NCBI GenBank assembly: GCA_903832085.1
Contig: CAIKZZ010000022.1
Coordinates: 1-64,000 of the forward strand
DNA: 64,000 nt
DNA from: an uncultured Pseudomonadota bacterium
Lineage (GTDB): Bacteria > Pseudomonadota > Gammaproteobacteria > Steroidobacterales > Steroidobacteraceae
Direction: 5' to 3'
Shown: positions 1,740-49,490 of the stretch, one piece after another
How positions within the stretch are numbered: the first letter of the stretch is position 1
Layout of the letters: each line of letters opens with the position of its first letter
The notes under the pieces: generated by a model
Database searches by the model: none
Told to the model about the DNA's origin: nothing
Seen by the model: the letters and a program-made list of their open reading frames with translations, nothing else
Made by a program: the position numbers and the translations under genes

Positions 1740-2752
1740 ATGATGCTCTCCTACAGTCTCTTGCAAGAGTTTGTTTTGCTCACCTTGGAAGATGAGGGTG
1801 GTGGTTTTGAATAGGTTCCAGAAGTGCAAATCGCCTGCGGTACCGCGGGGGCTGTGCTTATGGACTTGGCGCTGCAGGGCCGAGTGGATTCTGATATCAA
1901 CCAGCTGTGGGTAGTCGATACAACCCCCACAGGCGATCCTATCTTAGATGGAGTGCTGGCCGAGATAGCCGCGGAGCAGACTAAGCTAGATACCAGACTC
2001 TGGATTAAGCGCTTAGCACGACAGGCCAGCGCCATGCGCGTAATAGCGGTAGATGAACTATGTAAGCCAAGGAGTCCTTCACTCGAATGATTCCAAATTC
2101 TTGTGGGTGATGAAGGAGCGCCGCTATCCGGCCACAGGTGGGCAGGAGCAAGTTGAGGCAAAGAGGCGGGTTCTTGCGGTGTTGTTGAGTCGTGATATCC
2201 CGAGCCCGCGCGATGCCGTACTAACGGCTCTCGCTGATGGTTGTCTGTTGTTCGATCGGTTTTTTCAGCCGAAGCAGCTCGGTCAGGTGCGTAGTCGTAT
2301 CGACTTTATCATCGGCATGGATATCGGATCGCTACGGGCGTAAACCCACACTGCTCGTCGCGTCTGCAGTGTTGGTTACATGTGTTGTGCCGATCTTTTG
2401 GCTCATGGCGCACCAGTCGCTTGCACTCATCACATGTGCGGTGCGTTGGCTTGCCGCGATCGATGCCTTCTTACGGTCTGGACTCTCTGCTTTCATGGTC
2501 GAATCCTTCCCGAAGGAGGTCAGGGTGTCAGCCGTCTCTTTAAGTCACAATGTGTCGGTCAGTGTCTTTGGGGGTACGTTGCCCTTGGTGGCCAGTTTCT
2601 AATCCCGCACCGGATGCGTCTTGGCGCCAGCGTATTACTTGTGTCTGGGGGCGGCTATCTCGCTAATCATCTTAGTGGCCAGTGTCCGTGGCGACAGCCG
2701 TTACTCTCGAGAGAGCAGCGCATCGCATCGTAGCGTAGCGTGTACGCCTTGA
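1740..2752 (+). pseudogene. Decayed GPP34-MFS fusion gene
   Basis: Fragments in three frames line up in order with the intact gene at 34037-35911. From ATG 1740 the frame reads like the GPP34 start (QEFVLLTLEDEGG against EELLLLTLDDAGG) but meets TAG at 1812-1814. It then continues through LWVVDTTPTGDPILDG to about 2062. A frameshift moves the match to another frame (SKFLWVMKERRYPATGG to about 2325). Next a jump to a third frame joins directly to the late transporter part, SDRYGRKPTLL and VESFPKEVRVSAVSLSHN. About 300 residues, most of the transmembrane helices, are missing. A TAA at 2600 interrupts the end, and the matching tail LAPAYYL continues in the same frame to TGA 2750. At least two premature stops, one frameshift and one large deletion make this a dead paralogue. 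Confidence 0.88.
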
Positions 2753-30375: not shown

Positions 30376-32337
30376 CTAGAGCGCAAAGAGTTTTTTGACA
30401 GCGGCAACATTCCTGTGTTCTTCAGCTTCGTCTGGAGAGCTAAAAGTGATGTAACCATACACTTCGCGATTATCAAGATATTGGCGGATCCCTTGAGTGC
30501 GGGCGCTGTCGCATACAATGACGTATTCGTGACGTTCACTGCCATCTTGATAGCGTAGTACTGCTGCTACATCAGCGCGGAGCAGATAGGTGGCGTGGAC
30601 GACTGGCATTTCGATGATGCCGCGCACCTTCTGATGCAGGATTTGCCAATACTGATCCGTCTCTTGCATGTATCCGTTTTGGTCAATCGCGGCGTGATAG
30701 TTGGAGTATGGATGTGCGCAGTCCACGTGTCGCAAAAAGGGGGCGATAAATGGCAGATCAAGCGCGACGAGTTCAGCAAGTGTGTTGGGCCTAACGAAGT
30801 TATCGACGTCAGACGTAAAATAGTAGTCGCATTGATGCTGATGGGTTTTTTCCAGACTGATTTGGCGAATTTCCCCAAGGACGGCAAAACGCGGCGCATT
30901 CCATTCGTGCGCGGCATAGGCCTCGACTTGTGTGGCCGTGTCCTCGTTGCGAAACTCAACGGCTGCATACAAGTGCCCAACACGATCTAACCAATCTTTT
31001 AAAATGTGTTCCGTATTGTCTGTATTGTTGTTGGTGCGCACGTATAGGACGATTGAAGACTTTGGATAGTCGAGGTTTTCAATTCCCTGTAGATAGAGGG
31101 GCAGAAACGACTCTTTTTGTTTGGCAAGAATCGCGACTAGAACGCGTGGCGCAGGTTCCTTCAAAGGCGCTAAAGGGCGCTGCGACTTTTCGCTGTGTAA
31201 CTCAGCAAAACGCTTTTCTGCATTAACTCCCAGATGCCGTTGTTTTTTCAGTTGATCGGACGCAAAACGTGCGTTAGACAGTATGCGCGGATGTTGGTCT
31301 TGTGGGGTTGCCGGTTGTGCTAGCACTGCGAGGCATGCATCGAGGCTGTCTTGATATCGTCCCGCCCAATAGGTGCAGACAGCAAACTCGTCACGCAGTC
31401 GGTAATCGTAGATGCCTTGGTCGACAAATAGCATGTCCGGACTCGGCTTAAGCTCAAGCCCCGCCTGTGCATACGCGCAACCGTCGTCCCAGCGATTCAC
31501 AAGCCTACAGGCTCGGGCAGCGTCATGACGTGCCTCAGCGCGGTTCGGTACTAATGCGATGGCGCGGTCGTAGGTGGCTAGCACCGTGTCTACTGGATGC
31601 TGCAGCGCAGTCTGTAGTTGGGCTGCGTTGTAAAGACTAATGTAGCGTTCCTCGACCCACCCTGCCATGTCCGCACGTTGCAGATAGGTTCGCAGTGCCT
31701 GCTCCGGCATGCCGGCGTCGCGGTAGGTTTGCGCTAAGTAGAAGGTATAGCGCGTGCGTAGAAAATCGCTGAGGTCGCCTTGTAGCGCTGTTTCTAAAAC
31801 CACTGCATCTTTTTTATAGGTGTTTGGATCCCGACTTCGAGCGCCTTCATGTGCGATCACAATGATGGGGTTGACTAGGTTCTCGGTATGAAAAGGCGTG
31901 TCACACTCAAGAAACTCGTGCAGCACTCCAGACCAGCGCCAGGGAAGGTTTGCGCGGATCAAGGCGACTCGGCCGTAACGGGTGTCACCATAGTGGCAGG
32001 TAAGCGAGTAAGCGTCGGCAACAAGAGAGGAGCGATCAAACTCCTGAAGCAGGCTAGCCGTCTCGTCGGCATCTATGAAAATGACATAATCGCCTTGCCG
32101 CTGTGCAAGCTGCAGGACTTCATTCCGGTTGTGGGCAAAGTTGACCCACGGTTTTTCAACAAGTGTTCCGGGTTTGTGCGCCATGACAGAGCGGATAATG
32201 GCTTGGGTCCCATCCGTGGATCCAGTGTCTGAGATGACCCAATGGTCGATCAGAGGCAACATAGAGCGGAGGCACCGTTCAATGACGTGCGCCTCGTTCT
32301 TAACGATCATGCTTAAACAGATGGTTGGTGCGGCCAT
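30376..32337 (-). CDS. Two-domain glycosyltransferase: GT2 plus collagen-galactosyltransferase-like domain
   Basis: This 653-residue protein has three parts. Residues 1-about 230 are a GT-A family 2 domain (LSMIVKNEAHVIERCLRSML, SDTGSTDGT, FIDADE). Residues about 230-390 are helical, TPR-like repeats. Residues 397-653 form a second GT-A domain with VLVAILAKQKESFLP, NNNTDNT, metal motif SDVDN (510-513) and VVHATYLL. This last part resembles, in order and spacing, the N-terminal domain of animal procollagen galactosyltransferases (COLGALT/GLT25D), compared from memory. No signal peptide; cytoplasmic. It would transfer two sugars to a protein or glycan; the acceptor is unknown. ATG 32337 lacks a strong Shine-Dalgarno. 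Confidence 0.82.
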   Translation of the reverse strand: MAAPTICLSMIVKNEAHVIERCLRSMLPLIDHWVISDTGSTDGTQAIIRSVMAHKPGTLVEKPWVNFAHNRNEVLQLAQRQGDYVIFIDADETASLLQEFDRSSLVADAYSLTCHYGDTRYGRVALIRANLPWRWSGVLHEFLECDTPFHTENLVNPIIVIAHEGARSRDPNTYKKDAVVLETALQGDLSDFLRTRYTFYLAQTYRDAGMPEQALRTYLQRADMAGWVEERYISLYNAAQLQTALQHPVDTVLATYDRAIALVPNRAEARHDAARACRLVNRWDDGCAYAQAGLELKPSPDMLFVDQGIYDYRLRDEFAVCTYWAGRYQDSLDACLAVLAQPATPQDQHPRILSNARFASDQLKKQRHLGVNAEKRFAELHSEKSQRPLAPLKEPAPRVLVAILAKQKESFLPLYLQGIENLDYPKSSIVLYVRTNNNTDNTEHILKDWLDRVGHLYAAVEFRNEDTATQVEAYAAHEWNAPRFAVLGEIRQISLEKTHQHQCDYYFTSDVDNFVRPNTLAELVALDLPFIAPFLRHVDCAHPYSNYHAAIDQNGYMQETDQYWQILHQKVRGIIEMPVVHATYLLRADVAAVLRYQDGSERHEYVIVCDSARTQGIRQYLDNREVYGYITFSSPDEAEEHRNVAAVKKLFAL

Positions 32338-32442: not shown

Positions 32443-32856
32443 CTAAAGTAACTGCTTGGTCATGGTTAAGTGGTTCTGTCCGTCGCTGAGACGGTAGCTA
32501 ACCTCGTCCATCATGGTACGTATCAGATGAATCCCAAGACCGCCAATACCGCGGCTATCTAAATCGAGAGTTGTATCTGGTGCATCACGACTCAGCGGAT
32601 CAAATGGTGTCGAATCATCGCTAATAGTCATCTGGACTGTGGTTGCGTCGGAATTTAACGTCAGGGTGACTAATCCTGGGTGCGCAGGGTCCGTTGCATA
32701 AGAGACGATGTTGACGAAAATTTCTTCAAGCGCTAATTCAAAAGGATAGCGCACGTCGACGGGCAGGGCCGCGGCTGCCCAGAATTCGGTTAGGAAGGAC
32801 TGCAGCGCAGCAAGTTCTGCTGCGCGTGCCTCCACTATCCGGTGGACTGAATTCAC
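32443..32856 (-). CDS. RsbW-like serine kinase/anti-sigma ATP-binding protein
   Basis: The 137-residue protein is a HATPase_c_2 domain. It has the N-box FELALEEIFVNI (Glu 44/45, Asn 49), G1-like ISDDSTPFDPL and G2 GGLGIHLIRTMMDEVSY. In partner-switching systems such a kinase phosphorylates a STAS antagonist and binds either that antagonist or its target (a sigma factor or enzyme). All key residues are kept, so it is likely active. Its GTG start overlaps the stop of the STAS gene by 4 nt (GTGA), giving a coupled pair. No sigma-factor gene is in the window, so the final target is unknown. Confidence 0.9.
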   Translation of the reverse strand: MNSVHRIVEARAAELAALQSFLTEFWAAAALPVDVRYPFELALEEIFVNIVSYATDPAHPGLVTLTLNSDATTVQMTISDDSTPFDPLSRDAPDTTLDLDSRGIGGLGIHLIRTMMDEVSYRLSDGQNHLTMTKQLL

Positions 32857-33206
32857 GCCGGCGTGCTGAACTTAGCGAGAGCCGCCGCCTGATCAGGAAA
32901 TACGTCGATGATGCGACCAAAGCCGCTGATATCGAAAACTTCTTTGACTCCTGCGGTCAGCGAGCACACGCCAAAGCCGATGGCAGCCGATTTTGCGGCG
33001 CGGGCGGCAACTAAAAATACGCGTAAGCCAGCGCTCGAGACGTATTCGATTCCCTCGCAATTAATCGCTACCGCAGCTTTGCGAGCTGCAGCGTTAGCGA
33101 TGGCTTGTTCGAGCTCTTTCTGAAAGCTCGCCGACGCTTCGAAATCAAGTCGGCCGGTGGCCTTGACGATCGTGGCAGAGTCTAAAGTCTCAATCGTGGT
33201 ATTCAT
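32853..33206 (-). CDS. STAS domain anti-sigma factor antagonist
   Basis: From ATG 33206 (AGGAG 8 bp upstream; a longer frame from 33239 is less likely) the protein has 117 residues, a single STAS domain. The phosphorylation site appears as EYVSSAGLRV (Ser 57/58). The C-terminal helix region VKEVFDISGFGRIIDVF is typical. It should be phosphorylated by the RsbW-like kinase encoded next and dephosphorylated by a PP2C phosphatase; a receiver-PP2C gene lies at 48234. The gene is 41 bp after the GPP34 gene on the same strand. Confidence 0.9.
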   Translation of the reverse strand: MNTTIETLDSATIVKATGRLDFEASASFQKELEQAIANAAARKAAVAINCEGIEYVSSAGLRVFLVAARAAKSAAIGFGVCSLTAGVKEVFDISGFGRIIDVFPDQAAALAKFSTPA

Positions 33207-33247: not shown

Positions 33248-33898
33248 TTAATGAACTGACATCATCATGACTCGTGCGCGCAGTTCCGCGTCGTCGCGAA
33301 TCGCGGCTTCCACGCCCCGCACAACGAGATCGAGTCCACCGACGACGCCGATTCGATCGGCAAGCTGTGCGATCTGCGCGCGCGTCAAGAATGATTCAAG
33401 TAGACCGCCGGCCACCGCAAGGCCGATGAGCACGGTGTCGTGGGGTGTAGGCAGCTCTGTGGAGAGCAACATGGAAATGATGCGCAGCTTGGCTTCTTTT
33501 TGTTCCTTGCCGTCAATCATCGGGTATCGACGTGAGCGCAGGGCCCACAGGAAGCGCGCCTCGGTTTGTTGTAGGACGCCACGCTGTAGCAGGCTGCGCA
33601 AGGAAAGCTTAACGAGTTCATTGCAGATGGGCTGCAGCTCCCGAGACCACGTGCGTACGGGGCGCTTTGGTCCGGCGCCAAGCTGCTTTAGGATGGCATC
33701 CAATGTCTCAATGCCGGTCGGCTCAGTTGACAGCACGTTGACCGCATCCAAATCGGCATCAATGCGCCCAAGAATATTTAATTCCACTAAGCAGGCACCA
33801 ATCAGCGCCATCGCAAAGCCAGGGGAGCCAGCTGTATAGGCGATCTTGCCATCATCTTCGATTGCAAGCAGCACGAGTTCTTCGGTCAGGCTGATCAA
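33248..33898 (-). CDS. GPP34 (GOLPH3/Vps74-like) domain protein
   Basis: This 216-residue protein is a stand-alone GPP34 domain. The start LISLTEELVLLAIEDDGKI, the middle RSLLQRGVLQQTEARFLWALRSRRYP and KLRIISMLLSTELPTPHDTVLIGLAVAGGLLESF match the family. In eukaryotes this fold binds phosphatidylinositol-4-phosphate and retains Golgi glycosyltransferases; bacterial roles are unknown. I place the start at TTG 33898, because AAGGAG stands 6 bp before it and the paralogues begin at the same point. The ATG at 33922 has no ribosome site and lies about at the predicted transcription start. It is the first of a likely unit GPP34-STAS-RsbW. Confidence 0.8.
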   Translation of the reverse strand: MISLTEELVLLAIEDDGKIAYTAGSPGFAMALIGACLVELNILGRIDADLDAVNVLSTEPTGIETLDAILKQLGAGPKRPVRTWSRELQPICNELVKLSLRSLLQRGVLQQTEARFLWALRSRRYPMIDGKEQKEAKLRIISMLLSTELPTPHDTVLIGLAVAGGLLESFLTRAQIAQLADRIGVVGGLDLVVRGVEAAIRDDAELRARVMMMSVH

Positions 33899-33925
33899 GG
33901 GCGTCTCCTTTGAGGAATGCATCCA

Positions 33926-33931
33926 ATTATA
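33926..33931 (-). promoter_or_regulatory. Consensus -10 box ahead of the GPP34 gene
   Basis: A perfect TATAAT on the minus strand, 27 bp before the TTG start at 33898. No good -35 at 16-18 bp. Its position puts transcription start near 33919, which supports the TTG rather than the upstream ATG as translation start. Confidence 0.4.
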
Positions 33932-33986
33932 GGGGTTCTTGGGGGCCCGTGTGGTGAAGTCTTGAGCTGTCCTTGGCTGCGCGGTC

Positions 33987-34010
33987 GGCCTGTGAGGGTC
34001 CACACAGGCC
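33987..34010 (-). terminator. Hairpin downstream of the GPP34-MFS gene
   Basis: GGCCTGTG and CACAGGCC form a perfect 8-bp stem with an 8-nt loop, 27 bp beyond the stop of the fusion gene. A further partial copy AGGCCTGT follows at about 34016. No T-tract, so either a weak terminator or an mRNA 3' structure. Confidence 0.4.
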
Positions 34011-34036
34011 CGTAGAGGCCTGTATGGAGGACGATC

Positions 34037-35911
34037 TCAGGGCGCGGGTTGTTGCCGCATAAATGCGAGAGTCACAAAAGACAAGATACATGCAGCCGTA
34101 AGGTAGTAGGCCGGTGCCACGGGATTGCCGGAGTGGGCGACTAGATACACAGCCACGAGCGGTACGGTGCCGCCAAACGCGGTCTGGGCAAGGTTATAGC
34201 CCACTGACAGACCCGAACAGCGGACGTGTTTTGGAAATGCCTCGACCATGAGTGCCGCGGAGCTGCCTACAACGCCGGCTAACATCACTGCGAATAGTGC
34301 CTCAGCGATTAGGACACGCCCTGCGTCTCCGTCGATCATTAGGTGAAATAGCGGTACCGTCAAAACGCTCAACAGTGCGAAGGATGTAAGCATCAATGGC
34401 TTACGCCCGATGCGGTCACACAGTGCGCCCGCGATCAATGTCGATGTGAGTAAGACGGTTAGCGCCGCACTCGTCAGCAACAAGGCAGTGGCGCTGGGCA
34501 TGTGATGTTCGCGTTTTAACCATGTTGGTAAATACACAAAGCACAGGTAGAAGCCCACTGCATGGCCGGTGTTCAGGCCAATGACTTGAAGCATCGCCCG
34601 CCACTGTGTGCGGAACACCTTGCGTATGGGCGCCTTACGCGCGCCTTCGAGTGCTGTAATGGTTTCGTCTGGCGGTAGGCGGCGGCGCACGATATACACG
34701 ACGATACCGATGAGTAGACCTGTCAAGAAGGCCAAACGCCAGCCCCAGGCCGCTGCATGTTCGGGTGAGAGCGTGGCGAGCAGTGTGGCGCCAACGCCGG
34801 AGCCCAGCAACATTCCTGCAATCGCTCCAAACGGAGCGAAGCTGCCAACGCGACCACGCCGACTGGGTTGCGCGGACTCAACGAGCATGACGATTGAAGT
34901 CGTGTATTCGCCACCGACAGCAAGTCCCTGCATCAGGCGCAGCAGGATCAACAAGAGCGGAGCGACAATGCCAATCTGGTCATATGTGGGGAGCAGCGCC
35001 ATCAACAGAGTGGGTATAACCATCATGACAACGCTCGCCATCACGGCCGTGCGCCGGCCGCGGCTATCCCCTATATAGCCGAAGAATAGTCCGCCCAATG
35101 GGCGTGCAAGAAAGCCGGCTGCAAAGACACCAAAGGAGGCGAGCAGCGACACCGCGGGATCGTGGGCTGGAAAAAACAGCTTGCCCACCGCTTCAGCGAA
35201 AAATCCATACACACCAAAATCGAACCACTCCATGATATTGCCAGCGAGACCTGCGACCACAGTGCTGCGCTCGGCAGTCTTGAGTTCCTTCCCAAGTTCC
35301 ACTGCTGTGCGCGTGATATCACCGCCAATCAGGTCGAGGGCTGCAATCTGTCGAATGCGCGGTGCGGCGCGCACCAGTTCTTTGGGCGTGAGTATGCGGT
35401 CAAATACCTTGCACGCGTCTGCGATGGCGGTTAGTGCGACATCTGTTGCATCGGGGATCTCGGCATTAAACAGGAGGCTGAGAATGCGTCCCTTTGCCTC
35501 AGGGCGTTGCTGCCCCTCAACTATAGGGTAGCGACGACCGTCGTTACCCCAAACGAAGCGATCTTCACTCGGACGCAGGATGCCACGCGCGCACAGTTGC
35601 TCGATCGCCGTCGTGCGCAATGCACTTGCCTGCCCAGCAAGTCGCTTCATCCATATCCGCACTGGCTCTCGGGTCGGTGCGGCTGAAATTAGCGTCAGGG
35701 CTTTATCCAATACTGGGTCGCCCGTTGGGGTTGCGTCAACGACCCACAGCGCCGTCAGATCAGAGTCGATACGACCTCTTAAAGCGAGGTCCATCAGTGC
35801 CGCACCGGCAACGCCACAGGCAAGCTGTAGTTCCGGCACCCGATCAAATTCGCCACCGGCATCATCCAACGTGAGTAGCAGCAGCTCTTCCAAAAGGCTA
35901 ATTGGCGGCAT
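34037..35911 (-). CDS. GPP34 domain fused to MFS metabolite:H+ symporter-type transporter
   Basis: 624 residues from ATG 35911, which has AGGGG 5 bp upstream; the frame extends to ATG 35980. Residues 1-about 205 are a GPP34 domain (PPISLLEELLLLTLDDAGG, RFVWGNDGRRYPIVEG). A short linker leads to a complete 12-helix MFS transporter of the ProP/metabolite:H+ symporter kind: NIMEWFDFGVYGFF, GYIGDSRGRRTAV, QGLAVGGEYTTSIVMLVE and LCDRIGRKP. A cytosolic lipid-binding-type domain joined to a symporter is an unusual architecture and suggests membrane-composition sensing or oligomer control, which is inference. A decayed relative of the same fusion lies at 1740-2752 and a free GPP34 protein is encoded downstream. 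Confidence 0.88.
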   Translation of the reverse strand: MPPISLLEELLLLTLDDAGGEFDRVPELQLACGVAGAALMDLALRGRIDSDLTALWVVDATPTGDPVLDKALTLISAAPTREPVRIWMKRLAGQASALRTTAIEQLCARGILRPSEDRFVWGNDGRRYPIVEGQQRPEAKGRILSLLFNAEIPDATDVALTAIADACKVFDRILTPKELVRAAPRIRQIAALDLIGGDITRTAVELGKELKTAERSTVVAGLAGNIMEWFDFGVYGFFAEAVGKLFFPAHDPAVSLLASFGVFAAGFLARPLGGLFFGYIGDSRGRRTAVMASVVMMVIPTLLMALLPTYDQIGIVAPLLLILLRLMQGLAVGGEYTTSIVMLVESAQPSRRGRVGSFAPFGAIAGMLLGSGVGATLLATLSPEHAAAWGWRLAFLTGLLIGIVVYIVRRRLPPDETITALEGARKAPIRKVFRTQWRAMLQVIGLNTGHAVGFYLCFVYLPTWLKREHHMPSATALLLTSAALTVLLTSTLIAGALCDRIGRKPLMLTSFALLSVLTVPLFHLMIDGDAGRVLIAEALFAVMLAGVVGSSAALMVEAFPKHVRCSGLSVGYNLAQTAFGGTVPLVAVYLVAHSGNPVAPAYYLTAACILSFVTLAFMRQQPAP

Positions 35912-35984
35912 GTCGACCCCTACGTTGGCTTGTTGTTTGTCTATCCGCCTCTGTGGGCGGGTGATGTCAGCGATACGCATTATA

Positions 35985-36174: not shown

Positions 36175-36876
36175 ATGAGCGAATCGCGGGCATTAGTGGC
36201 TCATCGAGCGGCGGCAAAGCGCTCCTTAATCCAGTTTTCCAGTTTGTTGATTTTGACAACTTTGATTACCGGGCTTTCGGGGCTATTTGCGGTGTGGTCG
36301 CTCAACCGGACGCACGACCGAACGGAAGCCCAGCTCGTCCAAATTGCAGGCACGATTGAGCGGGGTCGCGCCGCGCAGGTCCAATTTAAGGTTCAAGTGC
36401 AGGAATGGAAAAACTTCCTGTTGCGTGGTGAAAGCCTCGCCGATCGTGATACCTACTTGCGTGCATTTCTGGATAGCGAGTCCAAGACACAAGCGATTCT
36501 TGCAGATCTCTCTCATCGACCAGATCTAGTTCTAAATTTTCATCTTGCGCAGTCAGTCAATGCTCTGATAGACGAACATAAGACCCTCAGTCAAGCCTAT
36601 GCAGGTGCGCGCTCTTTGATGAACGAGCAGCATTGGAATTACGCCGTGATGGATCGCGCAGTTCGTGGTCTTGATCGGCCAGTCAATCAGCATGTAGATG
36701 AGTTTGTCGAGCATGTGAACGCTCAGTTACAGGTTGTGTTAGGCGATGCCATTGCATATGAGCGGCATCGATATGGTCAGTTGGCACGCGTGATTTGGCT
36801 GGCAATGCTATTGACGATCGTGCTGGTCGGTACCTTGATATGGCGCTTGTTTACTGGGCGGGTGAAGGTAGCATGA
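36175..36876 (+). CDS. Membrane 4-helix-bundle sensor-like protein without output domain
   Basis: The 233-residue protein has a transmembrane helix at about 22-44, a periplasmic helical region like a four-helix-bundle chemoreceptor sensor (WSLNRTHDRTEAQL, QFKVQVQEWKNFLLRG) and a second helix at about 208-226. It ends ten residues later with no HAMP, kinase or methyl-accepting domain. The periplasmic part resembles sensors in chemoreceptors and histidine kinases. Its stop overlaps the start of the Na/Pi cotransporter gene by ATGA, so both are probably made together. It may be a cut-down receptor or an accessory subunit of the transporter. No function can be assigned. Confidence 0.72.
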   Translation: MSESRALVAHRAAAKRSLIQFSSLLILTTLITGLSGLFAVWSLNRTHDRTEAQLVQIAGTIERGRAAQVQFKVQVQEWKNFLLRGESLADRDTYLRAFLDSESKTQAILADLSHRPDLVLNFHLAQSVNALIDEHKTLSQAYAGARSLMNEQHWNYAVMDRAVRGLDRPVNQHVDEFVEHVNAQLQVVLGDAIAYERHRYGQLARVIWLAMLLTIVLVGTLIWRLFTGRVKVA

Positions 36877-38471
36877 GTTTGCCCTATGCTGGTGCCACGG
36901 CGTGTGCGGGATTGGGTTTATTCTTTGTTGGCATGCGCACAATTACCAGTCATTTGCGTGAGCTCGCAGGAGGCCGCTTGCGCGCGCTCCTCGCACGCAC
37001 CCTGCAGCGGGCCAGCATCGCCCCTATCGCGGGCTTTTTTGCAGGAGCGCTAACGCAGTCCACCAGTGCGGTGACCTTCATCGCAACAGGTCTTATTGCA
37101 GCGCGGGCTACAACTCTTGCAACGGCGCTTGTCATGCTGGCATGGGCTAACGTTGGTACGTCGATTCTGGTTTTGATTGCGGCCATTGATGTGCATGCGC
37201 TAGTTCTCTACCTCTTCGCATTGTGTGGTATCGCCTATTTTTCTGGACTCGAGCAGACCGAGCGCTACAGACATACCGTCGTGGCGTTACTCGGCTTGGG
37301 TCTGTTGCTGTTCGGACTGTCCACGCTAAAGGGCGCAGTTGTAAGCCTGAATACCGAGCCTTGGGCGCGCGAGTTCGTGGAGTTTGCAGGCTCAGGCACG
37401 GCGATTGCCTTTTTAGTCGGGTTTGTTGTGGCGGTCGCTGTGTCGTCATCATCCATTGTAGTGGTGCTCGCATTGCCGCTGATACAGGAAGGGGTGCTGT
37501 CGCTCGATGCCTCCGCCTTTTTGGTCTTTGGGGCGTGTGTGGGTTCTGGCGGCGCTGTGATATTGCTCTCATCTGGGCTTGATGGTGCGTCGCGCCAGCT
37601 GGCTCTAGCGCAGGGGCTGCTGCGTGCGCTTGCCGTCCTATTGTTGTTGCCCCTGTATTTTGTCGAGCATTATTCGGGACTGCCGTTGTTGCTTGTGCCA
37701 GTCCGGATGCTGGCATCGGCTGCTGTCCTGCAGATGGGCCTTTTGTTCCTAATCGCACAGGTAGCAACAGTCGTCGTCGTCATGGTGTTAGGTCGAGTCT
37801 TGGTGCGGTTTGTCAGTTGGATTAGTCCGCTTGATGCGACGACGGCGCTTGATCGACCGCACTACTTGTTCGATGAGGCCGTTAAGGATCCTGCAACGGC
37901 TCTAAAACTTGCTCAACTTGAGCATGCTGCAGTGATTGGGGTTTTGCCTGATTTCTTGGATGAGTTGCGCCCAATTGAGGAGCGCTCGGCGTCGTCTCCA
38001 TCGCTTAATGCGCGCCAAGCCGCCAGCAGTGTGCTGGTGATCGAGATACAGCAGTTCTTAACGGCGACGCTTCATTCAAATCCTGAGATGGGTGCTGAGG
38101 AAATCTATGATTTGCGCCGTCGATTAATTGCGCTCGGCGAGTTACAAGGTGCGATCTATCAATTTGCGCGAGAGTTGCTGGCGGTGCCGCAGGAGGAGCG
38201 ACCAGCGTTTTGCATTGCGCTGATTGAGGGCTTGCATGCGGTGCTTGGTGTGGCGGTAGAAACCACATTAGATCAAGCAGCCGATGCGTTCGTAACTCTT
38301 GAGATATTAACCGCTGAGCGAGGTGGCCTAATGGATAGCGTGCGCGCTGAACTTCTAGGCGGAGCTACAAGCATTTCTGGACGTGAGGCGTTGTTATCAG
38401 CGACGCTCCTCTTCGAGCGCATCATGTGGATGCTGCGCCTCGGTAACTGGCGGATTAGCGCGCCGCTCTGA
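36873..38471 (+). CDS. Na+/phosphate cotransporter family protein with PhoU-like tail
   Basis: 532 residues from ATG 36873 (GAAGG upstream, ATGA overlap with the sensor gene); an upstream frame to 36795 is unlikely. The first Na/Pi-cotransporter repeat has the hallmark GALTQSTSAVTFIATG (QSTS at 62-65). The second repeat reads AVAVSSSSIVVVLAL, so the usual glutamine of the second QSSS motif is missing. After about ten helices a soluble helical C-terminal half (from about 330) resembles the PhoU-like domain of bacterial NptA relatives. Likely imports phosphate or exports anions with sodium. Its 3' end overlaps the convergent binding-protein gene by 17 nt. Confidence 0.83.
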   Translation: MSLPYAGATACAGLGLFFVGMRTITSHLRELAGGRLRALLARTLQRASIAPIAGFFAGALTQSTSAVTFIATGLIAARATTLATALVMLAWANVGTSILVLIAAIDVHALVLYLFALCGIAYFSGLEQTERYRHTVVALLGLGLLLFGLSTLKGAVVSLNTEPWAREFVEFAGSGTAIAFLVGFVVAVAVSSSSIVVVLALPLIQEGVLSLDASAFLVFGACVGSGGAVILLSSGLDGASRQLALAQGLLRALAVLLLLPLYFVEHYSGLPLLLVPVRMLASAAVLQMGLLFLIAQVATVVVVMVLGRVLVRFVSWISPLDATTALDRPHYLFDEAVKDPATALKLAQLEHAAVIGVLPDFLDELRPIEERSASSPSLNARQAASSVLVIEIQQFLTATLHSNPEMGAEEIYDLRRRLIALGELQGAIYQFARELLAVPQEERPAFCIALIEGLHAVLGVAVETTLDQAADAFVTLEILTAERGGLMDSVRAELLGGATSISGREALLSATLLFERIMWMLRLGNWRISAPL

Positions 38472-39516
38472 GTCGCTCGAGTGTTTTGGCTTCGATCTCT
38501 TCAAGGCCCGCGGGTACCGGCGGATACCAGTGGATGTTTTTCAGACCCTGAGGAAAGCTGTCGAAGAATTGTGCTTTTAAGCGCGGGTCGATTAGCGACA
38601 GTGTTCCTTTGGTCGAGGTGAAGTTGCCCGCCGCTTTGGTTATCTTGGCTGCAATATCCGGTCGCATGGTGTAGTTGATCCATGCATAGGCGCCAGCTTC
38701 GTTTTGGCCTTTGGCTGGGAGTACAAACGTCATTTGCCACGCTAGTGAGCCGGATTTCGGGTTTAGAAAGCGGACAAAAGGGTTTTCCCGGTTTAATTCC
38801 CAGGAAGGCGAGTCCCAAAGCATGCCCGCAACCAGTTGGTCCGAGCGTAGGCCTTTTAAAACCTCATCAGACGAGCTGTAGGTAAACGCGAGATTCTGTT
38901 TGCATGAGAGCAGCTTATGGCCGACCTCATCGATTAGCTCGCTGTAGGCTTTTGGGTTCCCGTACAGAGCAAAAGGATCATGACCAAGCGCAAAAGCAAA
39001 GGCAATGAGGGCGGGTCGGCGCAGTCGTAGGGTGGTTTTCCCGTTGAATTCGGGTTTGCATAGATCCGTGTAGTCAGTGATATCTGCGCGACGCGTATTG
39101 ACAACCATTCCTTCAGCGCCCCACAAGAATGGCAGTGCATATAGCTTGCCATCCAAGGTCGTCATTTTTTTATCGATTTCCAACATGTCAGGCAGGTATT
39201 GGTCAGCGTTGACGCGTGATAAATCGATCGGTTTGTAAATGTGGTAGCTCTGTTGTGCGCCGGTCACACGATCCTGCGATGGCTGTGCAAGATCATAGCC
39301 GGCTCCGCCCGAAGCCTTCAGGCGAGCGACCATGTCCTCGTTTCCGGATAGCGTGACCTCGATTTCGATACCGGTTTCTTTGCGAAAGTCCTCAGCTACG
39401 TCGGCTGGAACATAACCATCAAAGGTCAGGATTCGTAACTTCTTTGACTCATCGGCGAGAGCCGACGCAGTGCAGAACAGCGCTAGCACCAGGAGACATC
39501 TACAAGCACGATTCAT
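38455..39516 (-). CDS. Periplasmic polyamine-type solute-binding protein (copy 1)
   Basis: 353 residues from ATG 39516 (AGGAA 8 bp upstream; GTG 39537 rejected). The signal peptide RCLLVLALFCTASALA is followed by a PotD/PotF-like class: KLRILTFDGYVPADVAEDFRKETG, DLAQPSQDR, LPFLWGAEGMVVNT, and the C-terminal GLKNIHWYPPVPAGLEEIEA. It should bind spermidine, putrescine or a similar cation. No ABC permease or ATPase gene is nearby. It is nearly a duplicate of the next gene (by eye about 85% identical, same length), with 221 bp between them. Confidence 0.86.
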   Translation of the reverse strand: MNRACRCLLVLALFCTASALADESKKLRILTFDGYVPADVAEDFRKETGIEIEVTLSGNEDMVARLKASGGAGYDLAQPSQDRVTGAQQSYHIYKPIDLSRVNADQYLPDMLEIDKKMTTLDGKLYALPFLWGAEGMVVNTRRADITDYTDLCKPEFNGKTTLRLRRPALIAFAFALGHDPFALYGNPKAYSELIDEVGHKLLSCKQNLAFTYSSSDEVLKGLRSDQLVAGMLWDSPSWELNRENPFVRFLNPKSGSLAWQMTFVLPAKGQNEAGAYAWINYTMRPDIAAKITKAAGNFTSTKGTLSLIDPRLKAQFFDSFPQGLKNIHWYPPVPAGLEEIEAKTLERLRAAR

Positions 39517-39737
39517 CAAAATATTCCTAACGAACACAACGAACTCAGGGAAGCATACAGCTTATAAGTGACAAGATTAACCTTGTATTTGCTATGTGTC
39601 ACGGCCGCCGGTTGGAATTGCCGTTCGCGGCGTGTGTCCATTCCCAAGGAACGCTTCGCAGTGGTTCGGTGCTTATCGTGCAGCACCCATGGTCGGCGAG
39701 GTCGGCGGTAGGTGCCGCCGCCATTAGGGTGTGTCCG

Positions 39738-40799
39738 CTAGTGCGGGGCTTTTAGTTTGTCGAGAACTTTGGCCTCAATGTCCTCAAGCCCGGCAGGTAC
39801 CGGTGGGTACCAGTGGATATTCTTAAGCCCTTGAGGGAAGCTTTCAAAGAACTGCGTTTTGAGGCGTGGGTCAACCAACCCTAGGGTTCCCTTCGTTGAG
39901 GTAAAGTTACCCGCTGCTTTGGTGATCCGTGCAGCAATATCGGGCCGCATCGTATAGTTGATCCACGCATAGGCCGCGGCATCGTTCTGACCTTTCGCAG
40001 GTAGCACAAAAGTATCTTGCCAGGCGAGGGCCCCAGACTTTGGGTTGATGAAGCGCACAAACGGATTCTCGCGATTAATTTCCCAAGCAGGTGAATCCCA
40101 AAGCATGCCAGCAACGATTTTATCTGAGCGCAGGCCTTCTAGGACTTCATCGGACGAGGTGTAGATGAACGCCATGTTTTGTTTGCACGAGAGCAGTTTG
40201 CGTCCGACTTCATCGATTAGTTCAGCGTAGGCTTTTGGGTTCCCATACAGCGCAAATGGGTCGTGACCAAGGGCAAACGCGAAGGCCATTAGGGCCGGGC
40301 GCCGCAGCCGTAGTGTTGTCTTTCCATTCAGTTCAGGTTTGCACAGATCAGTGTAGTCGTTGATATCGGTGCGGCGCGTGTTGACGACCATTCCCTCTGC
40401 GCCCCACAGGTACGGCAGCGCATAAAGTTTGCCATCCAAGGTGGTCATTTTTTTGGCGATCTCTAGCATGTCTGGCAGATACTGATCTACGTTTACACGC
40501 GACAGATCGATGGGCTTATAAATGTGATAGCTCTGTTGCGCGCCGGTAATGCGGTCTTGAGATGGCTGTGCAAGATCAAAACCTGCCCCGCCCGAGGCTT
40601 TCAGTCTGGCAATGATGTCTTCGTTGCTCGACAGGGTTACTTCAATTTGTATGCCGGTTTCCTTACGGAAATCCTCAATAATATCGGCTGGGGCGTAGTG
40701 GTCCCAAGTGAGAATTCGTAGCTTCTTGGCATCGTCGGCGTGGGTCTGCGCGCTGAGCAGCAGCACGAGTAGTGGTAAAGAGCGACGGAGACGAATCAT
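39738..40799 (-). CDS. Periplasmic polyamine-type solute-binding protein (copy 2)
   Basis: Start ATG 40799 has AGGAA at 6 bp spacing. The open frame continues far upstream without stop, but that part overlaps the divergent promoter region and cheA, and is not protein-like. The 353-residue product has signal peptide RRSLPLLVLLLSAQTHA and the same fold and motifs as copy 1 (KLRILTWDHYAPADIIEDF, PSQDRITGAQQSYHIY). Differences cluster near the N-terminus and in residues around FDGYVP/WDHYAP, which in PotD-type proteins lie close to the ligand cleft. The copies may thus differ in ligand preference. It is divergent from cheA. Confidence 0.86.
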   Translation of the reverse strand: MIRLRRSLPLLVLLLSAQTHADDAKKLRILTWDHYAPADIIEDFRKETGIQIEVTLSSNEDIIARLKASGGAGFDLAQPSQDRITGAQQSYHIYKPIDLSRVNVDQYLPDMLEIAKKMTTLDGKLYALPYLWGAEGMVVNTRRTDINDYTDLCKPELNGKTTLRLRRPALMAFAFALGHDPFALYGNPKAYAELIDEVGRKLLSCKQNMAFIYTSSDEVLEGLRSDKIVAGMLWDSPAWEINRENPFVRFINPKSGALAWQDTFVLPAKGQNDAAAYAWINYTMRPDIAARITKAAGNFTSTKGTLGLVDPRLKTQFFESFPQGLKNIHWYPPVPAGLEDIEAKVLDKLKAPH

Positions 40800-40837
40800 T
40801 CGCATTTCCTGTGGACGGATCGAGTCGCTCAGAACGC

Positions 40838-40860
40838 AGATTACCCAGATTACCCAGATA
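40838..40860. repeat. 9-bp tandem repeat between binding-protein gene and cheA
   Basis: Two full copies of AGATTACCC plus five bases of a third lie in the divergent region, about 40 bp upstream of the copy-2 binding-protein start. Direct repeats of this kind can be regulator sites; no known consensus recognised. Confidence 0.5.
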
Positions 40861-41025
40861 CGATCGAGAATAGCCTTGGCGGTGCTCGCTGTCACGCGGT
40901 GACTGCTCGGGCGGGTCATTGGACCGCGAAAAGTCGCCGGTAGGCCCGTACAGCATGGCGACACTGTCATGGTTTTCAAGGTAAGCTGAGCGGAAGACTG
41001 TTCGTAGCAGAAAGACCGCTCCCGC

Positions 41026-43260
41026 ATGACCGACACGACCGCTGAAATCCCGCTTGATGTGCTCGATGGACTTGCGCAGTTGCTGACGCGAGTGGCCGAA
41101 GAGTTGGCGTTTGTGGAAGACGGGTCTGATGCTGGTTTGCTTGCGATTAACGCGCTGCTGATGGATTTAGAACAGTTACCAGGCATCGAGGCCTTGCGTG
41201 AACCCTACGGGCAAGCTCAGCGTATTGCTCGCGCATGGGTCGACTCGGTACTTGATGGAACCGGGCGATTTAGTGCCAAGGTCATCGCGGACTTACAGCG
41301 GTGGCACGACTGGTTAAACGAGTGGTTGGCATGCACGGTTGCAGGCGTTGCGAGTGAGCCGCTGCCGGCGAGTTGGGATGTCACACAATCGGTTAACGAT
41401 GGTGGCGCGGCTTCTCTTGAGCCCATGCTGGGCGTCGTGCCTGCAGCAGTGGATCCTGTGGTAGCCGTGGCGCCTGTGAGTGCCGAGTATGGTAGTGAGG
41501 TCGCCACTATTTTGCTCAATTTGCCTGCGGACATCGATTTATTACGGGAGTTTTATAGTGAGTCGCTGGAGTTGCTGCAAGCCATTGAACGGGCGGTGCT
41601 GACCCTTGAGGAGAACCCGTCTGCTGCGGAGGCAGTGAATGCGATATTCAGAGCCTTCCATACCTTCAAGGGCAGTGCCGGTTTTCTCAAACTCAATGCC
41701 TTGCAGCATTTGGCGCATGAACTAGAGACTCTTCTAGACTCAGTACGGAGTGGTTCGCTTGCGGTCAGCCGTCGAGTCATCGATGCGATTTTGATTGGGG
41801 CGGATGTGCTCGCGGATTGCACTCGGCGGGTGGGCGAACAGGTCAATGGCACCCAGTCCGTGCAGCCCATTCCGCTACCGACCACCCAGGTATTAGCATT
41901 GATTCGGGCTGCCACTGAGCCTGAGCCCATCGTGCCAGTGGCGCCGTTGCCGGTTGTGCCGGTAAGTGCGCTGGGTGGTTCGGGGATGCACAGCGCGGTT
42001 GCAAGCCCAGCTGTAGCCGCGGCGCCAGTGAGTAAAGCGGTTCCTGCAGCGCCTGCTGTTTCACGCGAGGGCGGCGTTGGGGCATCCGACAGCGGCACCG
42101 TACGGCTTGACGCATCCAAGCTCGATGATCTGGTAAATCTCGTCGGGGAGCTTGTGGTCGCCCAAGCAATCGTCGCAGGTAGCCGCGATGTGCGCGTGCA
42201 TGCAGGTCCTGAGTTTGCCCAAGCGATGAGCAGCCTGATGCGGATTACCAAAGACTTGCAGCGCAATGCCATGTCAATGCGGATGGTGCCGATCAGTGGT
42301 CTGTTCCGCAAAATGACACGCCTGGTTCGAGATCTGGCCAGCCGCGAGGGTAAGCAGGTCAAGCTGGTGTTGCAGGGTGAGGACACAGAGCTCGATCGTC
42401 AGCTTGTGGATAAGATGGGTGATCCATTGATCCACATGATTCGTAATGCCTTAGATCATGGCATTGAGCTCCCCGCTGACCGAATCGCAGCGGGGAAGGA
42501 TCCAGTCGGGACCATCGGCCTTGCCGCCTGCCACGAGCACGGCGGGGTCGTTATTCGTGTGTCGGATGACGGACGAGGCCTCGACGGAGAGCGCCTGCAG
42601 GCCAAGGCTGTGGAAAAGGGTCTTATTAGCCCTTCCTTAACCTTGTCGGTGGCGGAGACCCTCGAACTCATCTTCATGCCCGGCTTGTCTACCGCGGCAA
42701 CTGTCACAGACCTGTCAGGCCGCGGTGTGGGCATGGACGTGGTCCGGGGCCACATTGAGGCCCTACGCGGCACGGTCGAGATCGAATCCCACCGCGGGCG
42801 CGGCACCACCTTCAGTATCCGTTTACCCTTGACCCTCGCGTTGATTGACGGGTTGCTCGTGGGGGTTGGGCCCGAACGGTATGTCATTCCGGCACTCGCC
42901 GTGCGCGAGTGTTTTAGGCCTGCCAAGGGCGCGGTAACGGCTGTGCATGAGCAGGGTGAACTGGTCAACGTTCGTGGACACCAGGTTCCGGTGCTAAGGC
43001 TGGGTCGGTACCTAAACAAGCCCATGCAATCGCTGCAGCCAGAAGAGGGCATAATGGTCGTTGTTGAGTCCGGTGGGGCCATCCGGGCAATCCTGGTCGA
43101 TGAAGTGCACGGCAAGCAGGAAATGATCATCAAAAAATTAGGGCACACGTTTGAGCAGCAGATACTCATCGTCGGTGGAGCAGTGCTTGCGGACGGTACC
43201 GTTGGGTTGATTCTAAATGTGGATTCGTTGGTGCGTGCACCGCGGGCGGTACAGGTATGA
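41026..43260 (+). CDS. cheA: Chemotaxis histidine kinase CheA
   Basis: The 744-residue CheA starts with about 110 residues of extra N-terminal helix. The Hpt domain has phospho-accepting H212 in FRAFHTFKGSAGFL, followed by a long Ala/Pro/Val linker with no clear P2 domain. The dimerisation helices (KLDDLVNLVGELVVAQ), the ATPase domain with N-box MIRNALDHGIE, G1 VSDDGRGLD and G2 SGRGVGMDVV, and a CheW-like C-terminus complete it. It phosphorylates the CheB, CheY and receiver-PP2C products encoded downstream. It is the first gene of an eight-gene operon. Its stop overlaps cheW by ATGA. Confidence 0.95.
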   Translation: MTDTTAEIPLDVLDGLAQLLTRVAEELAFVEDGSDAGLLAINALLMDLEQLPGIEALREPYGQAQRIARAWVDSVLDGTGRFSAKVIADLQRWHDWLNEWLACTVAGVASEPLPASWDVTQSVNDGGAASLEPMLGVVPAAVDPVVAVAPVSAEYGSEVATILLNLPADIDLLREFYSESLELLQAIERAVLTLEENPSAAEAVNAIFRAFHTFKGSAGFLKLNALQHLAHELETLLDSVRSGSLAVSRRVIDAILIGADVLADCTRRVGEQVNGTQSVQPIPLPTTQVLALIRAATEPEPIVPVAPLPVVPVSALGGSGMHSAVASPAVAAAPVSKAVPAAPAVSREGGVGASDSGTVRLDASKLDDLVNLVGELVVAQAIVAGSRDVRVHAGPEFAQAMSSLMRITKDLQRNAMSMRMVPISGLFRKMTRLVRDLASREGKQVKLVLQGEDTELDRQLVDKMGDPLIHMIRNALDHGIELPADRIAAGKDPVGTIGLAACHEHGGVVIRVSDDGRGLDGERLQAKAVEKGLISPSLTLSVAETLELIFMPGLSTAATVTDLSGRGVGMDVVRGHIEALRGTVEIESHRGRGTTFSIRLPLTLALIDGLLVGVGPERYVIPALAVRECFRPAKGAVTAVHEQGELVNVRGHQVPVLRLGRYLNKPMQSLQPEEGIMVVVESGGAIRAILVDEVHGKQEMIIKKLGHTFEQQILIVGGAVLADGTVGLILNVDSLVRAPRAVQV

Positions 43261-43754
43261 GTGAAGTGCAAGCGACTCGCGATGTAAAAGCAGCTGCTGG
43301 ACGTTATTTAACGTTTCATCTGGGTGCTGCGCGTTACGCGGTACCAGTGCGTGATGTTCGGGAAGTGGTGCGTCTATGTCCCATTACCAGCGTGCCTTTG
43401 ATGCCGCCGCATGTGCGTGGTGTCATTAACTTGCGTGGCTCAGTGATGGCGGTGCTTGATTTGCGTGCGAAATTTGAGATGCCGGCAATTACTTATGATG
43501 ATAGGGCGTGCATCATTGTGTTTGAACGCCGCGATCTTGGCGCTGCGTCCACCGTAATTGGTGCAATTGTCGATGGCGTCAATGATGTCGTCGTGCTCGC
43601 GCAACAGCACATTGACGTGGCACCGGACTTTGCTGGTACTGTCGATGCCGATTACTTGCTTGGAGTCGCGACGACCGACAACAGTGTACTTGCGATGCTG
43701 AATATTAAAAATATACTTGCAACCGACGGCAGTCTGACTCTGCCTTCGATTTGA
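43257..43754 (+). CDS. cheW: Chemotaxis coupling protein CheW
   Basis: A 165-residue CheW domain linking the receptor to CheA. Typical stretches are LTFHLGAARYAVPVRDVREVV, PHVRGVINLRGSVMAVLDLRAKF and a final LAMLNIKNIL. The start overlaps the cheA stop by 4 nt, so expression is coupled. The receptor gene follows after 32 bp. Confidence 0.95.
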   Translation: MSEVQATRDVKAAAGRYLTFHLGAARYAVPVRDVREVVRLCPITSVPLMPPHVRGVINLRGSVMAVLDLRAKFEMPAITYDDRACIIVFERRDLGAASTVIGAIVDGVNDVVVLAQQHIDVAPDFAGTVDADYLLGVATTDNSVLAMLNIKNILATDGSLTLPSI

Positions 43755-43786
43755 TTACCTACTGCCGCTAGCCGCCGAGAAATCTC

Positions 43787-45433: not shown

Positions 45434-45454
45434 TACGGACCCGTCGGTAGCGCG

Positions 45455-48199: not shown

Positions 48200-48233
48200 T
48201 GAACTGGTTTTCTTTCTTTGAGGTATTGTTTCC

Positions 48234-49490
48234 GTGAATCCCAATGATCCGATTGTAAGTGGTGGCGCCGCAGTACCTGTCATCGAAGCTGATCCTGCTC
48301 TCATTTTAGGTACCGCGCGCGTACTTGTCGTGGATGACAGTCGGCTAATGCGCCTCGGACTCATTCGGGCATTGAATGCGCTCGGTGTGCAGTCCGTGTC
48401 AGAGGCTGGCAACGGACGTGAGGCGCTTGAGCGGATCCGAGTGGAGTCCTTCGATGTCATGCTGCTGGATATTGAGATGCCAGTGATGAATGGTATTGAG
48501 CTGCTGCTGGCGATGAAGGCGGAGCCGCAGTTGGGCCGATTGCCAGTGATTGTGATTTCAAGTGCTGAGCAGCTGGAAACGGCTGTTAAATGCATTGAGG
48601 CTGGTGCAGAAGACTATTTGCCAAAAACCTTCAGCCCGACTCTGTTGCGGGCTCGTGTCATGTCTTCGGTCGAAAAAAAGCGCTTGCGCGATCTTGATGC
48701 GCAGCGCGTACTCGAGCTGCAAACCGAAAAAGATCGACTCGAACGCACCCAGCGGCGGTTAGATGAAGAGCTTGCCCAAGCATCGCACTATGTGCAGTCG
48801 AGTTTTCCAGTGCCGATGAATGCGCCGTTAAAAGTGGACTGGTTTTATCAGCCGTCTACAGAGCTTGCAGGTGATGCGTTTGGGTATCACTGGATTGATG
48901 ATGATCATTTTGCCGTGTACTTGCTCGATGTGTGCGGCCACGGCGTAGGCGCCTGTTTGCTCGCAGTGACTGCGATCAACGTGCTGCGCACAGGCGCTAT
49001 CCCGAATGTGGATTTTCGTGATCCTGCGGCTGTCATGGCTGGTGTGAGCAATGCGTTCTTGAGTGAGAAGCACAACGATATGTATTTTACGCTGTGGTAT
49101 GGGGTATACCATGCGCCTTCACGGATGCTGCATCACGCCAGTGGTGGGCATCCTGCCGCATTGTTGCTCTCTCCGCCGAAGGCCGATGGCACAACATTGA
49201 GTCAGCAGCTGCGTAGCCCAGGAATGATCGTCGGTGTGATGGAAGATCTGAGCTACGACGCCCAATCGGTTTTAGTGCCGCCTGGCTCGCGCCTTATTTT
49301 GCCATGCGATGGATGCTTTGAAATCGTCGATCCACAGGGAGTGGATGCAACCTTTGAGGAATTTGAGGAGTTCATGAGGCAACGCGGCGCCCACGCTGAT
49401 GGGCTGTCCGATTTGTTCGGCTGGGCGAAAAACCGACACGGTGATGGTCCGCTCGACGATGATTTCTCCTTAGTACGCGTAGAGTTTTAG
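48234..49490 (+). CDS. Response regulator with C-terminal PP2C (SpoIIE/RsbU-like) phosphatase
   Basis: The 418-residue protein joins a receiver (VVDDSRL; acceptor D79 in MLLDIEMP) through a coiled coil (about 148-188, LRDLDAQRVLELQTEKDR) to a PP2C phosphatase. The phosphatase metal sites are visible as ELAGDAFG (D214), LLDVCGHG (D232), PCDGCFEI and a final DDDFSL. In the receiver the usual Lys-Pro reads K131-T132. It should dephosphorylate a STAS antagonist in response to CheA signalling; the candidate substrate is the STAS protein encoded at 32853. The start is GTG 48234. Confidence 0.92.
   Translation: MNPNDPIVSGGAAVPVIEADPALILGTARVLVVDDSRLMRLGLIRALNALGVQSVSEAGNGREALERIRVESFDVMLLDIEMPVMNGIELLLAMKAEPQLGRLPVIVISSAEQLETAVKCIEAGAEDYLPKTFSPTLLRARVMSSVEKKRLRDLDAQRVLELQTEKDRLERTQRRLDEELAQASHYVQSSFPVPMNAPLKVDWFYQPSTELAGDAFGYHWIDDDHFAVYLLDVCGHGVGACLLAVTAINVLRTGAIPNVDFRDPAAVMAGVSNAFLSEKHNDMYFTLWYGVYHAPSRMLHHASGGHPAALLLSPPKADGTTLSQQLRSPGMIVGVMEDLSYDAQSVLVPPGSRLILPCDGCFEIVDPQGVDATFEEFEEFMRQRGAHADGLSDLFGWAKNRHGDGPLDDDFSLVRVEF

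Follow-up and report, generated by a model that had tools for sequence, protein, structure and literature searches.

The window analysed here comprises 64,000 nucleotides of contig CAIKZZ010000022.1 (assembly GCA_903832085.1) from an uncultured gammaproteobacterium of the Steroidobacteraceae. It carries a gene in which a GPP34 domain, known from the eukaryotic GOLPH3/Vps74 proteins, is fused to an MFS carrier, followed on the same strand by a free GPP34 gene, a STAS gene and a HATPase_c_2 gene. The GPP34 domain is common to bacteria and eukaryotes, and in the latter it sorts Golgi enzymes. The features at the core of the locus are as follows.

34037..35911, minus strand: GPP34-MFS fusion gene, likely start ATG at 35911
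35327..35896, minus strand: GPP34 domain of the fusion (PF05719, 129.7 bits, profile positions 1-190 of 201)
34079..35242, minus strand: MFS carrier domain, metabolite:H+ symporter-like (TIGR00883, PF00083, PF07690; MFS fold in the predicted model)
33248..33898, minus strand: stand-alone GPP34 gene (PF05719, 110 bits against a cut-off of 29.1; the model matches GOLPH3/Vps74)
32853..33206, minus strand: STAS protein of the anti-sigma factor antagonist type with an S-x-G-L-R serine motif (PF01740 and TIGR00377 above cut-off)
32443..32856, minus strand: HATPase_c_2 protein of the RsbW-like serine kinase type (PF13581, 98.3 bits)

The open frame of the fusion (34037-35980, minus strand) encodes 647 amino acids without an internal stop. 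Its likely start codon, the ATG at 35911, is residue 24 of the frame, has a Shine-Dalgarno-like AGGGG just 5' of it, agrees with the starts of the relatives and coincides with the end coordinate given in an earlier note made from the letters alone (the original prediction). A Pfam scan of the whole frame places PF05719 at residues 29-218 (126.6 bits, E 1.7e-36, cut-off 29.1), bearing out the GPP34 identity proposed for the N-terminal part, and in the carrier part both Sugar_tr (PF00083) and MFS_1 (PF07690) exceed their cut-offs. TIGR00883 aligns at residues 247-634 with positions 1-399 of its 400 but scores 362.9 bits against a curated cut-off of 443.45, so that the carrier is full length without being a certified member of this subfamily. 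Hence, the predicted joining of GPP34 to a 12-helix metabolite:H+ symporter holds as regards two full-length parts, while the symporter model falls short of its cut-off and a count of exactly 12 helices was not resolved by simple hydropathy. Both of what we take to be the motif-A-like loops are present, and from its sequence the carrier looks transport-competent. In the AlphaFold model (mean predicted local distance difference test score, pLDDT, 84.4) a single predicted helix, residues 194-237, spans the junction between the two parts. As a Foldseek search with the whole-fusion model gave MFS-type chains only among the best 50 of 808 matches, the GPP34 half was checked through the profile and the model of the free gene.

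The free GPP34 gene, whose position next on the same strand had been correctly called, likely starts at a TTG at 33898, behind AAAGGAG and 138 bp past the fusion stop. Its product is 216 amino acids long (215-217 in near orthologues), and the model (pLDDT 85.6) matches at E<=0.001 only GOLPH3/Vps74 (8 chains, template-modelling score by query length 0.60-0.68). The HATPase_c_2 and STAS genes share 4 bases where they meet, and no other HATPase_c_2 gene in the genome scores higher. These two genes, directly downstream, are absent from the text of the original prediction.

Beyond the window, GPP34-MFS was found at 18 distinct loci in 14 genomes of Alpha- and Gammaproteobacteria, 17 of them as a single frame and one split between frames, and in 4 of 14 genomes of the same genus. 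The original prediction had named absence from all close relatives as evidence against itself and repeated fusion elsewhere as support; since the fusion recurs, its own tests for refutation fail. The junction is free of gaps in 16 fusion sequences from 13 genomes, with 35-73% identity to the window's fusion, and this, together with the one clean frame, speaks against a frameshift or assembly artefact. The GPP34 profile matched in none of 14 control genomes. PF05719 was further counted in genome sets that overlap and each include their centre genome. Of 98 relatives, 17 had a match; at the level of the order it was 36 of 396 genomes (31 above cut-off), at that of the class 11 of 369 (8 above) and at that of the phylum 14 of 398 (9 above). 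The order containing the alphaproteobacterial fusion locus L125 had matches in 7 of 199 genomes (5 above). Among 16 loci with named genomes, 15 are fusion loci; the metagenome-assembled genomes are titled Gammaproteobacteria, Hyphomicrobiales, Rhodospirillales, Methylocystis, Alphaproteobacteria or 'proteobacterium', and many isolate names of the fusion-bearing genomes are presumably those of lake or water samples.

The MFS-fused versions cluster as one group (98/99 support) in a tree built from 75 GPP34 domains. This group comprises 17 rows (16 MFS fusions and the frame-split copy), within which alpha- and gammaproteobacterial rows are interleaved. The single clade and the gap-free junction indicate, at the level of sequence, that GPP34-MFS is one old fusion, and the mixing of the two classes suggests that it has probably spread horizontally. 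This domain set holds 16 of the 18 MFS fusions, G1201 being left out and the frame-split copy of G029 placed with the free versions, as is L046, a gene of the P450 clade truncated at a contig end; in the linkage tally below, L046 and the G029 copy are each counted in the class to which they belong. Duplicates were removed before counting (L001-L032 against later, larger stretches), and L124, L126 and L131-L138, being the same contigs as those of G004, G293, G712, G013, G029, G003 and G009, were counted once. The tally covers neither the decayed window copy described below nor the second half-gene of G054 (C112), nor G141:C21 (a 680-aa frame).

The unexpected finding lies in the gene neighbourhoods. 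Profiles for STAS, HATPase and SpoIIE, which carry a bias in having been built from a few of these very loci, were run over all frames of the retrieved loci. In the clade of the free GPP34 gene, a GPP34-STAS-HATPase cassette with the GPP34 gene at its head is present in 17/17 loci. For the MFS fusions, at least one of the three switch genes lies within 6 kb in 7/18 loci (HATPase in 6, STAS in 7, SpoIIE in 4); among these seven, the window and G004 are linked via the cassette of the free gene, and in G293 the link is a weak STAS domain inside a larger protein. The order to which L125 belongs supplied four more GPP34 genes, of which 4/4 have switch genes within 6 kb (STAS in 4, HATPase in 2), and five of the six loci over cut-off in that order are linked, the G1201 fusion being the unlinked one. 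The Pfam models alone, applied to 11 of the 14 fusion genomes (all except G003, G009 and G1201) and to 8 of the 14 genomes with GPP34-P450 fusions, served as a check: a GPP34 gene and a HATPase_c_2 gene of at least 50 bits are no more than 6 kb apart in 10/11 of the former, the exception being G1148, and in 0/8 of the latter. As such strong HATPase_c_2 genes number 1-3 per genome, the chance of this proximity is at most 0.012 per genome in the 11.

Several alphaproteobacterial fusion loci have a fuller complement. At L125, L127 and L130, a STAS gene, a kinase gene and a sensor-bearing SpoIIE phosphatase gene all lie within 5.1 kb of the fusion, and L129 has its kinase and phosphatase genes no more than 1.2 kb from the fusion and a weaker STAS 4.8 kb away. 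The alphaproteobacterial layouts differ: at L125 and L127 the STAS gene is divergent, with the kinase and phosphatase downstream; at L129 the phosphatase is immediately downstream; at L130 all three are upstream; and G1219 and G1286 have a divergent kinase-STAS-phosphatase order. This variety of arrangement is to be read with the qualification that related genomes are not independent events. Overall, SpoIIE is within 6 kb in 4/18 fusion loci, 3/17 cassettes and 2/4 of the further alphaproteobacterial loci, and about 15 kb away in the window.

Partner-switching systems, known mainly for releasing sigma factors, have STAS and HATPase_c_2 proteins at their core, usually with a SpoIIE phosphatase as the third component. 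Inspection of the alignments shows the serine of the S-x-G-[LMI]-R motif in 25/25 STAS rows, and the E...N and GGxG boxes in 21/21 kinase rows. These residues, which we take to be the phosphorylated serine and the ATP-site N- and G-boxes, place the genes among partner-switching proteins with intact-looking motifs.

With regard to the domain itself, GOLPH3 is described, in the portions of the published sources that we draw on throughout, as binding phosphatidylinositol 4-phosphate (PI4P) through W81, R90, R171 and R174 and as inserting a hairpin (residues 190-201) into the membrane (PMC13408441), with R90, R171 and R174 also listed as contacts in PMC12494035; R90L alone largely abolishes Golgi localisation (PMC13408441), and GOLPH3 dimerises and inserts by this same hairpin (PMC12494035). 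These positions were mapped by HMMER alignment to GOLPH3 and a MAFFT alignment of the 75 domains. Equivalents of W81, R90 and R171 are absent in 75/75 bacterial domains (at R171, three rows have a lysine and one a gap), so that most of the PI4P pocket is lost. The R174 position is an arginine in 26/75 domains, namely 14/16 MFS-fused, 5/37 free, 1/16 P450-fused, 4/4 of a membrane type and 2/2 of a type with an unidentified extra domain. The hairpin keeps its aromatic core, with a tryptophan in 15/16 MFS-fused and 28/37 free versions. In the fusion model its strands are at 112-115 and 118-121 (block pLDDT 65-74), and in the free-GPP34 model it is of low confidence, residues 115-121 being under 50. 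The domains have a net negative charge (mean -7 in the MFS-fused ones), and the GPP34 profile matches GOLPH3 at E 2e-12. Hence, judging from the models, the fold is kept and membrane contact via the hairpin probably so, unlike the known lipid pocket.

These observations are best accommodated, we tentatively propose, by regarding GPP34 in these Proteobacteria as an effector of the STAS/HATPase partner switch, to which the fusion would wire a carrier; we rate this somewhat short of an even chance. By analogy with RsbW and its sigma factor, the HATPase kinase would bind GPP34. The SpoIIE-type phosphatase would dephosphorylate the STAS protein, which would then capture the kinase and release GPP34, and the released GPP34 could dock on the inner membrane by its aromatic hairpin and meet membrane proteins there. 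In the fusion, binding of the kinase, or of free GPP34, at the GPP34 domain might alter transport, since a single long predicted helix connects the domain with the first membrane helix of the carrier; regulation of the carrier by GPP34 is plausible. The wider formulation, that some bacterial GPP34 proteins are non-sigma outputs of partner switches, a kinase/anti-kinase pair controlling a Golgi-type membrane adaptor that in one lineage was built into a metabolite carrier whose transport is switched by STAS phosphorylation, is a possibility to which we give roughly one chance in three.

Several observations weigh against the effector proposal. Switch genes were seen in the available flank of none of 11/18 fusions (2 of these on contigs shorter than 6 kb), nor at any of 20 other free GPP34 genes (16 of which had only about 1.5 kb of flank), and within 6 kb STAS, HATPase or SpoIIE were found at 0/17 P450 fusions, 0/4 membrane-type and 0/2 unknown-type genes. 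On account of these other clades, the link between GPP34 and the switch is clade-specific and not general to bacterial GPP34. Strong HATPase_c_2 genes also occur away from GPP34, in 8/8 P450 genomes and in G1148, and GPP34 is therefore at most one of the outputs of such kinases. Further, the linkage is a matter of observed gene order, from which we infer the interaction of GPP34 with the kinase, and a shared neighbourhood can mirror shared expression alone.

Under the closest rival, GPP34 is a membrane-docking scaffold only, concentrating the carrier (or a P450) with itself and free GPP34 through the hairpin or GPP34-GPP34 contacts, the STAS/HATPase genes being merely co-expressed. The retained fold and hairpin, the dimerisation and insertion reported for GOLPH3, and the N-terminal fusion of GPP34 to such unrelated partners as MFS, cytochrome P450, a multi-helix membrane domain and a 225-aa domain are all in keeping with it. 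However, a carrier would hardly need an additional anchor, and the 17/17 cassettes and the switch genes around L125, L127 and L130 are left without explanation; we consider it rather doubtful, and the effector proposal is with due caution put above it. It is improbable that information runs the other way, with the carrier sensing its substrate and the GPP34 domain passing this on to the switch through capture or release of the HATPase. Such a transceptor would fit the window and G004, where the fusion immediately precedes a GPP34-STAS-HATPase cassette of the same orientation, as well as four alphaproteobacterial loci with switch genes no more than 5.1 kb from the fusion, but the motif-A-like loops, presumably a mark of transport competence, speak against it, as does the finding of the fusion beside only 2/17 cassettes (flanks short or absent in 5/17).

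The original prediction had the GPP34 domain tether, oligomerise or gate the carrier in response to the lipid state of the membrane. A reader of a PI4P-like lipid could draw on the fold, the hairpin and the arginine equivalent to R174 in 14/16 fusions; it is contradicted by the loss of three of the four pocket residues in every domain, by the effect of R90L alone in GOLPH3 and by the negative charge of the domains, so that on sequence grounds the idea is not supported and has little probability. Least probable of all is a neutral or decaying fusion retained by chance. Its patchy occurrence, the decayed copy in the window and the frame-split copy in G029 would be expected of such a fusion; that 16 sequences, drawn from 13 genomes of two classes and 35-73% identical to the window's fusion, keep open frames and lack gaps at the junction would not.

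The proposed switch may be compared with known systems. Like RsbV/RsbW/RsbU-type partner switches, the genes described here encode STAS, HATPase and SpoIIE domains with the serine and ATP-site motifs; unlike them, GPP34 heads the cassette and would replace the sigma factor as output. The available portion of PMC8256260 has the kinase alternating between the STAS protein and an output, classically a sigma factor, the output being unknown in some systems. It also describes SulP/SLC26 carriers with a C-terminal STAS domain, which resemble the fusion in joining a covalent cytosolic regulatory domain to a carrier and differ in carrier family and in the attached domain, here an N-terminal GPP34. The window's GPP34 shares with GOLPH3/Vps74 the family, fold and hairpin residues, and differs in the largely lost PI4P pocket, the carrier fusion and the bacterial host; GOLPH3 additionally has an N-terminal tail (residues 1-58; PMC12494035), and the likely starts in the window give no such long tail. 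The claim that the bacterial role of GPP34 is undescribed was nearly right, the only bacterial paper found on the domain being one of 2025 (PMC12402492). As far as its accessible part goes, it calls GOLPH3-like proteins previously undescribed in prokaryotes, counts 218 bacterial species with them and ties SCO4440 of Streptomyces coelicolor, a stand-alone protein encoded beside a carboxypeptidase gene, to wall-deficient cells; it mentions for this bacterial GPP34 neither a transporter nor a STAS/HATPase link. A plasmid relative from S. clavuligerus (L142) likewise had no switch genes within 6 kb by the proteobacterial profiles. Among the papers listed in our literature searches we found no description of the GPP34-MFS fusion, the GPP34-P450 fusion or the cassette; automatic domain databases outside this search may list the architectures. 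The papers listed for GPP34 in bacteria mostly concern an insecticidal protein of the same name.

With the bacterial role of GPP34 almost unknown, the fixed fusion and the three-gene cassette supply named partners and a direct test. If the effector proposal is true, a membrane output would be added to partner switching and the Golgi adaptor would gain a bacterial starting point. On the wider formulation given above, GPP34 might serve bacterial membranes generally as a plug-in module, joined to a carrier, a P450 or a multi-helix membrane domain, and the eukaryotic adaptor could derive from it.

In these bacteria GPP34 is indeed a portable module, being fused to an MFS carrier, a P450, a multi-helix membrane domain and a 225-aa domain. 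The GPP34-cytochrome P450 proteins form a separate clade (100/98 support), with 17 loci tallied, one of which, truncated by the end of its contig, was assigned by the tree; the P450 part was identified by Pfam in five scanned loci and by BLAST in the rest. This second, independent fusion was noted at L036, L038, L047-L049, L106, L109, L112-L114, L117, L118 and L120-L123. Genes for an RND pump and HlyD-type proteins are near 7/10 of the P450 loci compared (as gene clusters, with Pfam run on one member each). The other architectures are the following.

L105:7986-9236, L107:7042-9153, L108:7281-8570 and L110:7812-8987: GPP34 with a further domain (membrane type)
L060:2847-4238 and L040:11882-13135: diverged GPP34 with a 225-aa domain without a Pfam match

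The extra domain of the membrane type is hydrophobic with several helices in the three loci checked, and has marginal, sub-cut-off DUF4405/cytochrome b561-like matches in 2/4. A homologous gene follows within 1.6 kb downstream, the one scanned being Tll0287-like. The frame-split fusion copy of G029 (L040:9757-11623) consists of two overlapping frames, GPP34 and MFS, and could reflect decay, an assembly error or a real split. Sub-threshold GPP34 matches in G391 and G297 (frames of 614-618 aa) have no MFS or P450 part and were treated as chance, and a 22-residue match in a genome scan at L139 as spurious.

Elsewhere in the window, two further features touch on the subject.

48234..49490, plus strand: receiver-SpoIIE phosphatase (PF07228, PF00072)
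1743..2674, plus strand: decayed third GPP34-MFS copy, in three pieces and three frames

The receiver-SpoIIE gene, about 15 kb from the cassette, adjoins a chemosensory cluster (41026-49490, with CheA, MCP, CheB and CheX genes). G293 has a gene with this receiver-SpoIIE architecture and of nearly equal length at a distance of 1.2 kb from its cassette, and CheB is encoded nearby; the window's gene is therefore a possible phosphatase arm of the switch, and the cluster may be its input side; homologues of CheA, CheW, MCP or CheB are also near the cassette in some further genomes. The pieces of the decayed copy match fusion residues 24-130, 131-217 and 514-638, about the first two-thirds of the carrier being gone.

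Of the two glycosyltransferase genes said to lie within 6 kb, one was found among ten window genes scanned (30376-32337, with GT2 and Anp1-like domains). It has no homologue beside the other GPP34 loci searched, and no glycosyltransferase is among the families common to at least 3 of the 11 free-GPP34 or 13 fusion loci; retention of glycosyltransferases by GPP34 was accordingly set aside.

Carriage of the fusion as plasmid or phage cargo was likewise set aside. The fusion query matched 1499 plasmid records, all below 60% identity. In the 15 records listed, features with names comprise MFS transporters and a single neighbouring lyase, and five matches extend into the GPP34 part; two plasmid records with at least 80% query coverage lie outside these 15. 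Two of the five were retrieved: in one the match begins ahead of the start annotated for an ordinary MFS gene, and the other record has no annotation. The free-GPP34 query matched 6 Streptomyces plasmids and the fused-domain query 5 plasmids (3 Streptomyces, Actinomyces oris and Chroococcidiopsis) at 25-31% identity, and neither GPP34-only query had phage matches.

Upstream of the fusion and divergent from it (36175-38471) are a Na/Pi cotransporter gene and a gene without a Pfam match, each with homologues near the cassette in 7/11 loci compared; one homologue of the latter has a sub-cut-off 4HB_MCP sensory match. Two adjoining genes for PotD-like, polyamine-type binding proteins follow at 38455-41186, scoring under the model cut-off and likely representing a duplication.

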